A stretch of 35,125 nt of DNA from a virus: positions 1-35,125 of the IMG/VR virus record IMGVR_UViG_3300036772_000077; one strand, written 5' to 3'. A program made the position numbers and the translations under genes. Shown one piece after another: positions 1,649 through 12,736 of the stretch. Under the pieces are notes generated by a model that saw only the letters and a program-made list of their open reading frames with translations, made no database searches and was not told where the DNA came from. Within the stretch, counting starts at the first letter, position 1, and every line of letters starts with the position of its first letter.

Positions 1649-1708
1649 AAATTTAACTGTGTATTTGAACAGTGGTCAATGTTTGTCTCACGTAAATCCT
1701 ACATTGAT

Positions 1709-2654: not shown

Positions 2655-3239
2655 TCACTCCATTATAAGATTATAGAGATCGGTTTTGGTGTGAATAAAA
2701 AATACACCCCCTTCAATAGTTATTTCATCCTTGTCTGAAACAAAAGAATGTTCTCCCTCTTCAACTTTTATTTTTCCATTGGGAAGTTTTGTTATTTTTT
2801 TAACAAAATATTCATTGTCAATTTTGACAAGCCAAAGTCCATTGTGTGGTTGCGTTAGCGAGGTTGATATTAAATAAATGTCTTCATTTGTATATTTTAA
2901 AGCAAAAATATTTGCAATCGATCCAGGGGTAATACTAGAATCGATTTTGTAAAACCCAATATCCACTAATTCATTATTAACTAGCTTTTTATATAATACA
3001 TTATGCTCATGTTCGAACCCATCATGATGTTTCTCGCCTGTAACTAGCCATTGTAAGGATACACCTGTTTCAAGTGCACACTGAATAATGTAGTCAGCAG
3101 GAAATGTATCCCGAAGATAACGATTAGCGAGAGTGCTGCTTGAAATCCCCAGTTGCGCGCATAACGCTTGTTTCGTCGTGAACCCATAAGCTTCGACCAT
3201 ACGGTCTATAGCCGCTTTTCCACCTCGACGTAAATCCAT
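2655..3239 (-). CDS. 186 CI-type phage repressor
   Basis: The immunity repressor that keeps the early promoter off. The N-terminal segment (AAIDRMVEAYGFTTKQALCAQLGISSSTLANRYLRDTFPADYIIQCALETGVSLQWLVTGE) has the pattern of the 186 CI DNA-binding domain (Bac_CI_repr family), with a helix-turn-helix around QALCAQLGISSSTLANR. The C-terminal 110 residues resemble the 186-type oligomerisation domain. A longer reading frame begins at 3320, but its first 27 codons cover the operators. I therefore place the start at the ATG at 3239, which has GGGA upstream and gives 194 aa, close to 186 CI. It heads the operon with the two cargo genes downstream. Confidence 0.88.
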   Translation of the reverse strand: MDLRRGGKAAIDRMVEAYGFTTKQALCAQLGISSSTLANRYLRDTFPADYIIQCALETGVSLQWLVTGEKHHDGFEHEHNVLYKKLVNNELVDIGFYKIDSSITPGSIANIFALKYTNEDIYLISTSLTQPHNGLWLVKIDNEYFVKKITKLPNGKIKVEEGEHSFVSDKDEITIEGGVFFIHTKTDLYNLIME

Positions 3240-3242
3240 AGA

Positions 3243-3313
3243 AATCCCGAAACGTGAGCGATTAATCTTGACACTCACGTTTCGTGAGTTTAAATTCATC
3301 TCGAAACGTGAGT
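3243..3313. promoter_or_regulatory. Triple repressor operator
   Basis: Three copies of one 17-bp palindromic element lie between the divergent repressor and cox genes. The central copy (3273-3289) is a perfect inverted repeat, ACTCACG-TTT-CGTGAGT. The copies at 3243-3259 and 3297-3313 each match the CTCACGAAACGTGAG core at about 14 of 17 positions. Centres are about 30 and 24 bp apart. The central copy fills the spacer of the early promoter, so occupancy would exclude RNA polymerase. Confidence 0.8.
3268..3296 (+). promoter_or_regulatory. Early lytic promoter
   Basis: TTGACA (3268-3273) and TAAATT (3291-3296) are separated by exactly 17 bp, giving a strong sigma-70 promoter reading toward cox. 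The spacer is the central repressor palindrome. Expected transcription start is near 3303. Confidence 0.85.
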
Positions 3314-3363
3314 AATTCACTTGTTATCCTGGCTCACCACAAGCCAAAAGGAGATGTTGCACC

Positions 3364-6632: not shown

Positions 6633-7639
6633 ACATCATCGACCCGCGTTGCTTCGGTGTCAGCACTATCAACAGCATCAGTATTTCTGGGGGCAAGGAT
6701 AGTCTTGCCCAATGGCTAAGGGCCATTGAAAACGATGTTCCTCATATTTCTGTCTTCGCTGATACTGGCCATGAACACCCGCAGACGATGGAATACCTGG
6801 ATTATCTTGAATCCCAGCTGGGAAAAGTTAGCCGTGTTAAAGCTGATTTCACACGCCAGATCGACGGTAAACGGAAATTCATTGCAGAGAAGTGGCCCAT
6901 TTCTCTCGTTCAGGAATGCGGTATGTCTGCCGATGAAGCGGCAGAACGTGTGCACCGTGCTCTGGAAATACTGAAGCCCACCGGCAATCCTTTTCTTGAT
7001 TTGTGCATGTGGAAAGGCCGGTTCCCTACAACAAAAGCCCGTTTCTGCACCTTTGACCTCAAACATGAGCCTGTCCGTACTCAGGTGATTGTTCCTGCAT
7101 TAGATGAATATGACGAGGTTATCAGTTGGCAGGGAGTCAGGGCGCAGGAATCGCCAGCGCGTGCATTGCTTCCGGACTGGGAGGAAGATGCTGACAACAC
7201 TCCTGGCCTTCATGTTTATCGTCCGATCCTCAACTGGCAGCACGAAGATGTGTTCGCCATTGCCAAACGTCATGGCATCAAACCTAATCCGCTTTATCTA
7301 CAGGGCTGCAGCCGTGTCGGATGCATGCCCTGCATTCATGCCCGTAAATCAGAACTGGCGGAGATCTTCCAGCGCTGGCCAGAAGAAATTCGCCGTGTCG
7401 CTGAATGGGAAAGGATGGTTGCAGAATGCTCACGCCGTGGTAATTCAACGTTCTTCCCGTCGACACACGATCCACGTCGCGCCGAGAGGCGTATTGAAGT
7501 CATCACAGCCGATGCTTATGGCATTGAGACTTATCGCGACTGGGCGTTAACCACACGAGGTGGTGCCCAATTTGATCTGCTGGCAGGCACAAATGACAGC
7601 GCGGTATGTAGTAGTGTCTATGCGGGAGTTTGTGAGTGA
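6629..7639 (+). CDS. PAPS-reductase-family PP-loop protein (DndC-like)
   Basis: A 336-aa member of the adenine-nucleotide alpha-hydrolase (PP-loop) superfamily. The ATP pyrophosphate loop is intact (SISGGKDS, residues 18-25), followed by [16 protein letters not shown] cysteine cluster near the C-terminus (C227, C232, C235 in [11 protein letters not shown]) could hold an Fe-S cluster, as in PAPS reductases and DndC. The substrate is not known. True PAPS reductase activity in a phage early operon is unlikely, so nucleic-acid or nucleotide modification is a better guess. It overlaps the preceding and following genes by 4 bases each, so it is co-translated with replication gene A. Confidence 0.85.
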
Positions 7640-10047
7640 CGGATATCAGTTCAGGCCGTCACACAACACTTTTTATAACTGATAATTCCGGTAGCGCTGA
7701 GAAAGCTACCGGGAATTATTCATGGAATGCCCCTGCAAAAGCCGTAAACCCATACTTTGACCCGGCAGACGTTGCGCCGGGTTCTGCGCTTTCAAACCTG
7801 ATCACTCTGTACGCTGCCGACAATGAGCAGGAGCAGTTGCGTCGCGAGGTGCTGAGTGATGAGATCTGGGAGCGTTACTTCTTCAATGAGTCCCGCGATC
7901 CTGTCCAGCGTGAAATGGAGCAGGATAACCTCATCAGCTGGGCAAAAATGGCCCGTGAGCAGCAGCGTGTTAATCCCGATCTGGTGATTATCGCTGACGT
8001 CAGCGCTGAGCCGTCCCACCTCAGCAAGCCATTGCTGGAACGCATTAAATTCTTTCATGGCCTGGGCCGGGCAAAGGCTTACTCCCGCTATCTGCGCGAA
8101 ACTATCAGGCCATGCCTAGAGCGTCTGGCGCGTGTGCGTGAAAGTCAGGTGTCTGCTTCTTTCCGGTTTATGGCAAGCCATGACGGTCTGGAGGGGTTGC
8201 TGGTCCTGCCTGAAATGAGCCAGGGCCAGGTAAAACGCCTTTCTACGCTGGTTGCCGCACACATGAGCATGTGTCTGGATTCGACCTGCGGTGAGCTGTT
8301 TGTTACGGATGACATCAAGCCGGAAGAAATCCGCCAGTCATGGGAAAGGGTTGCTGCGGAAGCCATGCGTTTAGACGTCATCCCGCCCGCTTTTGAGCAG
8401 CTTCGCCGCAAGAAACGCCGCCGTAAGCCCGTGCCTTATGACCTTATTCCGGGTTCGCTGGCACGCATGCTTTGCGCGGACTGGTGGTATCGCAAGCTGT
8501 GGCAGATGCGATGTGAGTGGCGGGAAGAGCAGCTGCGCGCCGTCTGTCTGGTTAACAAAAAAGCTTCGCCGTATGTCAGCTATGAAGCTGTGATCCATAA
8601 GCGCGAGCAGCGCCGCAAGTCACTGGAGTTCTTCCGTTCGCATGAGCTGGTCAATGAGGCCGGTGATACGCTGGATATGGAAGATGTGGTGAACGCCAGC
8701 AGCAGTAATCCCGCGCACCGTCGCAATGAAATGATGGCCTGCGTTAAGGGGCTGGAGCTTATCGCGGAAATGCGCAGTGACTGTGCCGTTTTCTATACCA
8801 TCACCTGCCCGTCACGCTTCCACGCCACCCTCAACAACGGCAGGCCCAATCCGAAGTGGACCAGCGAAACGGTCCGGCAGAGCAGTAATTATCTGGTTGA
8901 TACATTTGCCGCATTCCGCAAAGCTATGCACAAGGCCGGACTGCGTTGGTATGGCGTTCGCGTTGCCGAGCCACACCATGACGGCACCGTACACTGGCAC
9001 CTTTTATGTTTCATGCGCAAAAAAGAACGCCGCTCTATCACGGCACTGCTGCGTAAATTTGCCATCCGCGAAGACCGCGAGGAGCTGGGAAAAAATACCG
9101 GCCCACGTTTTAAGTCCGAGTTGATCAATCCGCGCAAAGGCACGCCGACTAGCTATATCGCTAAATACATCAGCAAGAACATAGACGGGCGCGGGCTGGC
9201 TAAAGAAGTCAGCAAGGAAACGGGCAGATCACTGCGCGACAGCGCGGAGCACGTCACAGCCTGGGCTTCACTGCACCGTGTTCAGCAGTTCCGATTCTTC
9301 GGTATTCCGGGGCGGCAGGCATACCGCGAGCTGCGATTGCTGGCCGGTCAGGCTGCGAGACAGCAAGGCGATAAGAAGGCTGGCGCGCCAGTTCTGGCTG
9401 AAACCCGTCTGGATGCAGTACTGGCGGCTGCCGATGCGGGCTGCTTCGCAACCTACATCACTAAGCAGGGCGGTGTGATGGTCCCCCGCAAACATCACCT
9501 AATCAGAACGGCATACGAGCTTAACGACGAGCCGAGCACCTACGGCGATCACGGCATTCGTATTTATGGTGTCTGGTCCCCGTTAACGCAGGGCCGCATC
9601 TGCACGCATGCGGTGAAGTGGAAAAAGGTTCGTAAGGCCGTTGACGTTCAGGAGGCGACAGCCGACCAGGGCGCTCGCGCCCCTTGGACTCGTGGCAATA
9701 ACTGTCCCCCTGTAGAAAATTTAAACATATCAGGGGGGGATCTATCCTGCAGTGATGAGGCCACGCCGCTGCCGGACTTCGAAAATCTGAACAAAAAGGA
9801 ACTGCGGGAGCTGACGGCACGGCTACGCCTGGTAAAACCGAAGCGCCGGAAAGGGTACAAACAGGAAATTACGGAGCACCAACGGCTGCAGCTCGAAGTG
9901 GAACTGCGGTCCAGGGGCTTTGACGCCAGTGAAGCGGAAGTGGATCTCCTTCTGCGCGGTGGCAGCATCCCATCTGGGGCCGGGCTACGCTTGTTCTATC
10001 GAAACCAGCGCCTGCAGGAAGATGACAAATGGCGTCAATGGTACTGA
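7636..10047 (+). CDS. A: Replication initiation endonuclease A
   Basis: The rolling-circle initiator of P2-like phages (phage GPA family): it nicks the origin, which in P2 lies inside this gene, and stays covalently bound to the 5' end. The 803-aa protein carries a HUH metal motif ([14 protein letters not shown] at residues 453-455) and the double tyrosine YIAKY (Y507 and Y511) equivalent to the P2 A catalytic pair. Length is slightly above P2 A. It starts with GTG overlapping the upstream stop by 4 bases. The last third is highly basic and likely binds DNA or host replication proteins. Confidence 0.95.
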
Positions 10048-10126: not shown

Positions 10127-10146
10127 TACTGTATATATAAACAGTA
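10127..10146 (+). promoter_or_regulatory. LexA (SOS) box
   Basis: A 20-bp element with perfect CTG-N10-CAG ends, TA/TA outer flanks and an AT-alternating centre, one base away from the E. coli LexA consensus. It lies 17 bp before the GTG start at 10163 and overlaps -10-like sequence (TATATA), so LexA would block transcription and DNA damage would release it. Confidence 0.88.
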
Positions 10147-10162
10147 ATAAGGGGAGGGAGTT

Positions 10163-10348
10163 GTGAACGATTTGTTCATGGAGTCACTTGCACTACAGCG
10201 TATCGAACTTATGGCCAGACTGGTCGCCAGCTCAGACTGCAGCGATGATGATAAGGAAGTTGCCATTTCATGGTTGTCAGAACTGACGAGCGATCTGGTG
10301 ACCAGGCTAAATGTATACGGAGTAGTGCAGGATGAAAGCACGCATTAG
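10163..10348 (+). CDS. LexA-controlled 61-aa protein, candidate prophage inducer
   Basis: A small acidic helical protein (MNDLFMESLALQRIELMARLVASSDCSDDDKEVAISWLSELTSDLV...). The GTG start has GGAGG five bases upstream and sits just after the SOS box. In phage 186 the LexA-controlled gene in this part of the genome is tum, an antirepressor that inactivates CI. This protein does not look like 186 Tum or DinI, so a functional analogue is an inference from the promoter and location alone. It could instead modulate replication. Confidence 0.75.
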   Translation: MNDLFMESLALQRIELMARLVASSDCSDDDKEVAISWLSELTSDLVTRLNVYGVVQDESTH

Positions 10349-10436
10349 CGAATTTTTGCCTGGGGAAACTCCCTCCCAAATGGCGTCGCAAGTTATACGA
10401 AGGCAGTGCATGCGTATGGTGCATGAATTCGCATGA
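10332..10436 (+). CDS. 34-aa basic small protein overlapping the SOS gene
   Basis: A short frame (MKARISEFLPGETPSQMASQVIRRQC...) beginning inside the last codons of the LexA-controlled gene, in another phase, with an AGG close upstream. It is basic and rich in Arg and Met. Overlap suggests translational coupling and shared SOS control. It may be a genuine small gene; the evidence is position and amino-acid character only. Confidence 0.4.
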   Translation: MKARISEFLPGETPSQMASQVIRRQCMRMVHEFA

Positions 10437-10453
10437 TCGCAAAAGGATCGCAA

Positions 10454-10492
10454 CGGGTCAGAACCGCCAGCGCTGGCGTACCTTCTGGCCCG
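10454..10492. repeat. Nested inverted repeat near cos
   Basis: An outer inverted repeat (CGGGTCAGAA at 10454-10463 against TTCTGGCCCG at 10483-10492, one mismatch) encloses a perfect 14-bp palindrome (CGCCAGCGCTGGCG, 10465-10478). It lies about 40 bp from the cos site and is a plausible terminase small-subunit binding site. A terminator role is less likely as no T-run follows. Confidence 0.55.
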
Positions 10493-10530
10493 TCATGCAC
10501 CTGCATGAAAACCACTCCATAAAGCGCGCA

Positions 10531-10549
10531 GGCGTGGCGGGGATACGAG
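10531..10549 (+). other. cos: cos site (19-bp cohesive end)
   Basis: GGCGTGGCGGGG begins a 19-bp sequence closely matching the P2/186 cohesive ends as I remember them (GGCGAGGCGGGG and GGCGTGGCGGGG). It lies between A and Q, the expected place. It is framed by a perfect 7-bp inverted repeat, AGCGCGC (10523-10529) and GCGCGCT (10551-10557), whose centre coincides with the cos centre. The remaining bases of 10437-10653 outside this and the nested repeat show no gene. Confidence 0.85.
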
Positions 10550-10653: not shown

Positions 10654-11856
10654 ATGAATAGTAAATTGATTTCTTTGGATTTATTCGCTGGGGCAGGTGG
10701 CCTTACCTGTGGTTTAGATATGGCTGGTTTTCAGCCTATTCTTGCAAATGAATTAGTTCCGGCTCATGCGGAGACTTATGCATTTAATCATCCTCAGACT
10801 GAGGTTGTGGTTGATGATGTAAGAGCTATTGCCGAAAGCAATTTGATGAAGCAATTATCATTAAAACCAGGTGAATTAGATTTATTGGCGGGTGGTCCGC
10901 CGTGCCAAGGATTTTCAATTAACGCACCTATTAGATCCTTAGATGATGAACGAAATCATTTGTTTAAGGATTTTCTTAGGATAGCTGCGGCGCTAAAACC
11001 TAAGGCAATTTTAATTGAAAATGTTCCTGGTATTGTTTCCTTGGGTAAAGGAACTGTTGTAGAGCAAATCTACAAAGAACTGGAATCATTAGGTTACAGT
11101 GTAGGTCATCGTATTTTGTTTGCTGGTCATTATGGCGTCCCGCAAATGAGATTCAGAACCGTTTTCATCGCTATATACGGCAAAAATAAAAAAGTCAACT
11201 TCCCTGAGCCAAAATATAATGCGAAGGCAGTCGCTAATTTCGCTGGAGCTAAAGAGCTTTGTCTCCCAATTTCGCCGTTATTTTCAAGTGAATTGAAACC
11301 TCATACAACTGTTTGGGATGCAATATCAGATTTACCAATGATTATTGGCGGCAAAAATAATAATGGGCTTAGTTATTCATCTGAACCTGCTAGCGACTAT
11401 CAAGAAGTTTTACGTGGCAAATCAGAACTGGCCATGAATCACGTTGCCGCTAATCTCGGAGCTATTAATCTAGAACGTTTGAAACATATCCCGCAGGGTG
11501 GAAGTTGGAGAGATATTCCTTATGACTTATTGCCTACCGGTTTGAAGAGAGCGAGAAGAAGCGACCATACCAAACGCTACGGTCGCTTACATCCCGATGG
11601 GTTGTGCTCAACTATACTCACGAAATGTGATCCTCATTGGGGTAGTTTTTTTCACCCAACTCAAGATCGCGTAATTTCCGTTAGGGAAGCAGCTCGTATT
11701 CAGTCGTTCCCTGACCATTATATTTTCAAAGGTAATCTTACCCAGCAATATGAGCAAGTTGGAAACGCAGTGCCACCTTTAATGGCCAAAGCGATTGGGG
11801 AAGAAATCATTAATATGATTGGATATGGACATGAGCAACAGAAGAGATTTGGTTGA
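10654..11856 (+). CDS. DNA (cytosine-5) methyltransferase of a type II RM system
   Basis: A 400-aa C5-cytosine methyltransferase that transfers a methyl group from AdoMet to the RM recognition site and so protects the lysogen. Motifs appear in canonical order: I (DLFAGAGGLTCGL, residues 9-21), IV with the catalytic cysteine (GGPPCQGFS, C84), VI (IENVPG, 121-126), VIII (QMRFRTVFI) and X (QVGNAVPP). The target-recognition region lies between VIII and IX (about 200-330). Composition is clearly more AT-rich than the flanking phage genes. It overlaps the endonuclease gene by about 30 bp and lies between cos and Q, converging on Q. Confidence 0.95.
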   Translation: MNSKLISLDLFAGAGGLTCGLDMAGFQPILANELVPAHAETYAFNHPQTEVVVDDVRAIAESNLMKQLSLKPGELDLLAGGPPCQGFSINAPIRSLDDERNHLFKDFLRIAAALKPKAILIENVPGIVSLGKGTVVEQIYKELESLGYSVGHRILFAGHYGVPQMRFRTVFIAIYGKNKKVNFPEPKYNAKAVANFAGAKELCLPISPLFSSELKPHTTVWDAISDLPMIIGGKNNNGLSYSSEPASDYQEVLRGKSELAMNHVAANLGAINLERLKHIPQGGSWRDIPYDLLPTGLKRARRSDHTKRYGRLHPDGLCSTILTKCDPHWGSFFHPTQDRVISVREAARIQSFPDHYIFKGNLTQQYEQVGNAVPPLMAKAIGEEIINMIGYGHEQQKRFG

Positions 11857-12736
11857 AATATTCGGATATAGTCCAGTAGATCTTACTCCTGAAGTTAGAT
11901 CTTTATGGGCTTTAGGGGCTTGCCCGTTTCTGAACAAAGAATGTGTAAAGATAAATCATGATCAAACCATAATATATGGTACGTGTAGTGTAACATCCCC
12001 GTATGGGGATGTTATTATTTGCCCAAATAGATTGTATGCGAATAATTATGAAACGCTACTAAAGGTCAGTCATGATGCATTCGGGACTGATATTCCTTTC
12101 CTAACGTATGGCCAATATGTTGAACAAAGGGCTAATCATAAAGATTGTATAATTGCTCTTGGTAAAAATTCAGGTAAAGAAGTTCAAGTAGGTAGAGCAT
12201 TATCAATGGATTGGGTTTTGGTAAGAATGACCGATGGCCAAATAAACGAGTATGTAGGAATAGAAATTCAAAGCATTGATATTACTGGTAATTATCGTGA
12301 TGCATGGCATGCCTATAAAAATATCAAACCTACCGATGTTCGGAACGAATTGCCTACTTCTCAGCACGGTTTGAACTGGGCTAATGTTCATAAGCGATTA
12401 ATTCCACAGATTATTAGGAAAGGTGTGGTTTATTCTCGCTCAAATTATGTGAAAAAAGGGTTGTATTTTATACTGCCAGACATCGTCTATAAGAAATTTG
12501 AAGATGTTATCGGGAGTGATATTCCACTTTTAGATTATCAAAATAACAAAACAATTACAGTCTACACCTATGGACTTGGTGCGGTTGTACCAAATGGCCA
12601 ACAACGGTCGTTATTACAAAATAGAAAGATAACATTTGACCTTGATGAGTTTTCTAAACGCTTTACAACGGGTCCAAATTTACCAAGTGGTGAGGACCTT
12701 GATGCTGTAATAAAAAGAGCTTTAGGGGTTCTGTAG
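11825..12736 (+). CDS. NotI-family type II restriction endonuclease
   Basis: A 303-aa protein with the features of the NotI endonuclease family. Four cysteines (C33, C40, C54, C66 in CPFLNKEC, GTC and IIC) match the metal-binding site unique to that family. A PD-(D/E)XK-type centre follows with Q in place of the last K (MDWVLV ... EYVGIEIQS; D129, E147, Q149), as in NotI. It should cut DNA at a GC-rich site that the upstream methyltransferase protects. Start may be ATG 11825 or 11831. The overlap with the methyltransferase couples translation and ensures protection is made first. Confidence 0.88.
   Translation: MDMSNRRDLVEIFGYSPVDLTPEVRSLWALGACPFLNKECVKINHDQTIIYGTCSVTSPYGDVIICPNRLYANNYETLLKVSHDAFGTDIPFLTYGQYVEQRANHKDCIIALGKNSGKEVQVGRALSMDWVLVRMTDGQINEYVGIEIQSIDITGNYRDAWHAYKNIKPTDVRNELPTSQHGLNWANVHKRLIPQIIRKGVVYSRSNYVKKGLYFILPDIVYKKFEDVIGSDIPLLDYQNNKTITVYTYGLGAVVPNGQQRSLLQNRKITFDLDEFSKRFTTGPNLPSGEDLDAVIKRALGVL

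Follow-up and report, generated by a model that had tools for sequence, protein, structure and literature searches.

What is the function of a 61-aa open reading frame that follows a LexA (SOS) box in the genome of a P2/186-type phage? The locus lies in a DNA of 35,125 nucleotides (the window), a virus record that carries the integrase, CI, CII, replication gene A, portal and other genes of such a phage. A preliminary description had placed two tiny genes, of 61 and 34 aa, under the box and had suspected that they form a new antirepressor. From the analysis reported here we conclude with high confidence that the 61-aa ORF is a tumA that stands alone, coding for a predicted Tum-family antirepressor without the DinI half that would inactivate the CI of this phage after DNA damage. 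Such a DinI-less Tum-family protein is of a known kind; new is the evidence for co-exchange with CI, which bears on the mechanism. The locus contains the following features.

Positions 7636 to 10047, plus strand: replication gene A (PF05840, E = 4.5e-127), upstream of tumA as in 186.
Positions 10127 to 10146, plus strand: LexA (SOS) box TACTGTATATATAAACAGTA, with one mismatch to the 20-base consensus.
Positions 10163 to 10348, plus strand: tumA-like gene of 61 aa with a GTG start; N-terminal Tum homologue and predicted SOS-induced CI antirepressor.
Positions 10332 to 10436, plus strand: 34-aa open frame, judged not protein-coding (no coding constraint, broken frames, cos-proximal 3′ end).
Positions 10394 to 10530, plus strand: cos-proximal element, shared with phage 186, in which five GCATG/CATGC motifs are conserved at a constant spacing.
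Positions 10531 to 10549, plus strand: cos site GGCGTGGCGGGGATACGAG; the bases just before it match those at the end of the linear 186 record.

The near-consensus LexA box at 10127-10146 was borne out. None of 100 shuffles of the window contained a site with three or fewer mismatches to the consensus, compared to the single mismatch of TACTGTATATATAAACAGTA. The end of the box is separated by 16 bases from the GTG of the 61-aa ORF. It had also been said that the box sits on the promoter of this gene. A sigma-70 promoter is plausible there, but a consensus scan found none. An identical box at an equal distance to the gene was observed in 40 of 50 distinct phages of the window class, and a box with four or fewer mismatches is located 5′ of 242 of 247 tumA/tum genes, compared to 16 of 1235 random stretches. 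One window-class relative (L007) has kept tumA with no LexA box upstream of position 3001, where the best site shows 10 mismatches. A second CTGT-N8-ACAG site, CTGTGTATTTGAACAG, is found at window positions 1657-1672, just 5′ of the integrase gene and outside the 5′ end of that gene; it falls short of a full consensus LexA box.

The coding status of the two frames was assessed with relatives, which were gathered from sequence collections by single-protein queries; no stretch was conserved enough for alignment-based scans. For the 61-aa gene the relatives were drawn from 73 viral contigs and gave 41 distinct sequences for codons 1-45. Over these codons, variable columns number 11 at the first, 2 at the second and 32 at the third codon position, and omega (nonsynonymous to synonymous changes versus expectation) is about 0.03. 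This strong purifying selection shows that the 61-aa ORF at 10163-10348 is a genuine gene. The 34-aa frame has 19, 19 and 18 variable columns over the codon positions and an omega of about 0.95, and 9 of 71 relatives carry a broken version of it. Of the two tiny genes assumed to be under the LexA box, the 61-aa gene is therefore retained, whereas the second is an open frame that does not behave as a gene and whose conserved 3′ end belongs to the cos-proximal DNA. The first three of the five GCATG/CATGC motifs fall within its 3′ part. When the 170 bases before cos were aligned for the window, 186 and relatives, 4-7 of these motifs were counted per 170 nt, compared to 0.36 in shuffles, and the motifs may act in packaging. 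The sequence that flanks the cos site at 10531 agrees with the right-hand end of the 186 genome. We also considered the 34-aa ORF as a remnant of DinI, as its start (MRVRIS...) recalls the DinI start MRIEI; this was rejected because there is no coding constraint and the remainder is cos-region DNA. In three relatives (L034, L041 and L059), one unrelated sequence common to all three replaces the DNA 3′ of the tumA stop, and the cos-proximal element is gone from its usual place after tumA.

According to the preliminary description, the encoded proteins do not resemble Tum. For the 61-aa protein this is wrong. Using hhalign, a profile of eight TumA-like proteins was aligned to 186-type Tum, with columns 1-44 on Tum residues 1-44 (96.5%, E = 8.7e-10). 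In BLASTP the pairwise identity of the 61-aa protein to 186 Tum is low, with 31% over 49 aa (E = 4e-10). The PHROG matches of the 61-aa protein are phrog_698 (E = 3.8e-21), phrog_8554, phrog_189 and phrog_1993, and the match to phrog_189, the DinI/Tum family (E = 1.2e-5), covers positions 6-57 of 151 only. The N-terminal part of 186 Tum matches phrog_1993, phrog_8554 and phrog_698 as well, and PSP3 TumA belongs to phrog_1993. The four families connect the window protein, Fels-2 TumA, PSP3 TumA and Tum. The 61-aa protein shares 50% identity with the TumA-type protein that the prophage DuoHS encodes in E. coli HS, and the record of PSP3 annotates a 60-aa tumA as ‘similar to 5′ end 186 tum; UV induction of prophage’. 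Judged by these comparisons, the 61-aa protein belongs with the TumA that PSP3 and Fels-2 encode as a separate half of their split tum.

In a split tum, antirepressor activity is reported to reside in the upstream half (Lemire et al. 2011, PMC3121763). For DuoHS, a P2-like prophage of E. coli HS, the accessible text of PMC12055606 reports that mitomycin induction depends on LexA cleavage and tum, and that deletion of tum abolishes this phage induction and leaves the response of an SOS reporter unchanged; which one of the pair in DuoHS had been deleted is not stated there. Homology to Tum and the published work on relatives make an antirepressor role the best reading for the 61-aa protein, in agreement with the original proposal, and the protein would thus be expected to have antirepressor activity. 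The parallel with 186 tum that had been drawn also holds, both in the place between gene A and cos and in the LexA box control, with a CI-type repressor as the presumed target. Together, N-terminal Tum homology, a predicted LexA-controlled gene between A and cos and a 186-type CI in the phage are features of the Tum antirepressor family (TumA module). Given this homology, the tumA annotation in PSP3 and the activity of the upstream half, no other mechanism of inactivation needs to be proposed, and an antirepressor already annotated as TumA in PSP3 is not of a new kind. A new SOS-controlled pair of 61 and 34 aa, acting by a mechanism unrelated to Tum, would agree with proteins that are tiny, carry no DinI domain and match no family in Pfam or NCBIfam. 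However, such a pair is already contradicted by the homology of the 61-aa protein to the N-terminus of Tum, and the 34-aa frame lacks coding constraint and overlaps cos-region DNA, so that we consider this explanation extremely unlikely.

The closest known systems include tumA of PSP3 and of the Fels-2/DuoHS group, the upstream half of a split tum. These proteins also have 60-62 aa and N-terminal Tum homology, and they are encoded directly after gene A with a LexA box just 5′ and a 186-type CI in the phage. TumA of the Fels-2/DuoHS type is 48-50% identical to the window protein; PSP3 TumA is very divergent, with about 10-12% identity in a 30-row alignment. In PSP3 and Fels-2, a DinI-like tumB follows directly 3′, whereas in the window tumB is absent and non-coding cos-proximal DNA is found instead. 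The 146-aa Tum of 186, which switches the dormant prophage on after DNA damage and in which antirepressor and DinI are fused, shares the location between A and cos, LexA control, the N-terminal 44 residues and CI, but the window protein, at 31% identity over 49 residues, lacks the C-terminal DinI domain. A TumA-like N-terminal module without DinI and with a LexA box 5′ is also carried by ESSI-2, ev015 and the Yersinia phage vB_YenM_324; these ORFs show 44-54% identity or less and are ‘hypothetical’ or unannotated in their records. By description, GfoA, GftA and FsoA of the Gifsy and Fels-1 prophages are likewise small LexA-controlled inactivators of a non-cleaved phage repressor (PMC3121763). 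They differ in that the phages are lambdoid, the repressors are other ones and the dinI gene comes first.

No DinI match was found in the window at E values up to 1, and the ORF, which stops after 61 aa, thus does not have the fused C-terminal DinI domain of a full-length Tum of the 186 type. A separate DinI-like gene directly 3′, as in split tum (tumA-tumB), is not present either. A DinI-like gene is also absent from 33 of 34 close relatives, and the one exception carries it elsewhere. Among 336 loci, 75 have tumA and dinI fused, 126 have them adjacent, 132 have tumA alone and 3 lie at contig edges. Stand-alone tumA was found in several TumA classes, also in four phages of the 186 class whose Tum is shortened; other accessory genes often lie 3′ of it. 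It follows that the tumA half is the part that is retained and conserved, whereas several TumA classes have lost the DinI half. The 61-aa protein could still be read as a DinI-like SOS modulator that acts on RecA or LexA, with a linkage to CI that stems from the shared backbone. The gene is under SOS control and its family neighbours in databases carry the DinI label, which is due to the inclusion of the DinI domain in the Tum family. However, the aligned part is the half of Tum without DinI, in a window without any DinI match.

Further evidence for a stand-alone tumA that acts on CI comes from the repressor itself.

Positions 2655 to 3320, minus strand: CI repressor of the 186 type (Phage_CI_repr and Phage_CI_C), the presumed target.

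Beyond its DNA-binding domain, the window CI contains no Ala-Gly or Cys-Gly dipeptide for RecA-type cleavage, which fits a repressor that needs an antirepressor, weakly since such a dipeptide is present in 109 of 247 CI proteins. Of 50 phages that carry the tumA-like gene, 49 also encode the CI DNA-binding domain, and the exception is a degraded prophage. Three phages, L093 (OXA245phi3.1), L130 (PSP3) and L123 (G027), have a CI of 286-312 aa with two tandem Phage_CI_repr DNA-binding domains.

Identity among 33 phages of the window class is 99% for TumA, 76% for the CI N-terminal domain and 34% for the CI C-terminal domain. At 50% identity, 50 phages of this class contain 18 types of CI C-terminal domain, and one nearly invariant TumA serves these approximately 18 types. 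Over 247 distinct phages, the similarity of TumA correlates with that of the CI N-terminal domain (r = 0.80), also when gene A is removed (partial r = 0.73, 0 of 500 permutations). Once the N-terminal domain is accounted for, the C-terminal domain contributes little (0.11) to the correlation, in a comparison where the less diverged N-terminal domain makes a correlation easier to detect than the near-saturated C-terminal domain. Phages with near-identical gene A divide into two classes by TumA and, in the main, into two by CI, which are matched in 55 and 63 phages; the exceptions are 5 of 123 phages (1 and 1 mismatched, 3 with a third CI class). On trees of the flanking genes, the TumA class switches 25 times for A, 30 times for Q and 32 times for P. 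On the gene A tree, the CI class changes in the same direction in 16-17 of 18 independent pairs and in the opposite direction in none (p ~1.5e-5). The CI class follows TumA in 10 of 10 pairs on the portal (Q) tree and in 12 of 12 on the terminase (P) tree, and never takes the opposite direction. Mobility of gene A as the cause of the matching was considered and rejected, because portal and terminase genes sit on the opposite side of tumA from gene A and agree with it. The matched switches on three gene trees indicate that tumA is exchanged as a partner of cI, which lies several kilobases away, and not with its own neighbours. The TumA class is co-exchanged with the class of the CI DNA-binding domain, and the CI C-terminal domain does not follow.

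A host-directed protein would not be expected to switch together with the CI class on the trees of three flanking genes, and we regard an SOS modulator as improbable. The same exchange might also arise if TumA acted on another early regulator, Apl or CII, in place of CI, as apl and cII adjoin cI and probably move with it. However, CI is the known target on which 186 Tum acts (record annotation; PMC7708051), which leaves Apl or CII a very improbable target.

With CI as the target, the following course of events can be proposed for the stand-alone tumA. In the lysogen, LexA would silence the gene. DNA damage would lift LexA, and TumA would build up as a helical hairpin; AlphaFold2 predicts two helices for the 61-aa protein, at residues 2-23 and 28-59, with a mean pLDDT of 83. 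A fold search of PDB and BFVD with the predicted hairpin gave no match at E ≤ 0.001, and a sequence search of PDB gave none either. TumA would then bind the 186-type CI, presumably directly and most likely through or around the N-terminal DNA-binding domain, so that CI would be released from its operators and the lytic promoter would fire. On the basis of the co-exchange, we favour with moderate confidence that TumA titrates CI via this domain. More tentatively, the hairpin might recognise a conserved scaffold of the CI DNA-binding domain, by which a nearly invariant TumA could inactivate repressors of many immunity types. If this is true, damage to a lysogen carrying such a TumA would derepress prophages of other immunity in the same cell as well, in a cross-induction network of P2/186-type phages, and PHROG families 698, 1993 and 8554, whose function is so far unassigned, would be antirepressors. 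A function can thus be proposed for a small family (phrog_698, phrog_1993 and phrog_8554) that was left hypothetical or unannotated in the records. The matched exchange of TumA and CI DNA-binding domain makes the contact site of Tum on 186 CI directly testable, and TumA-CI matching allows a prediction of which prophages can induce one another.

Two further genes lie at window positions 10654-12736, between cos and the portal gene. The first codes for a C5 cytosine methyltransferase (PF00145), the second for an endonuclease of the NotI family (weak match to PF12183; phrog_15147, E = 1.1e-210). By these family matches, the two genes are a restriction-modification cargo. The same methyltransferase/endonuclease pair is located 3′ of tumA-dinI in a prophage of E. 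coli RM10466. The region 3′ of tum is a cargo hot spot (L169-L218, L379-L384), often where DinI is missing, and the cargo seen there comprises methyltransferases, a TIR-domain gene, an ATPase-like ORF and a reverse-transcriptase-like ORF.
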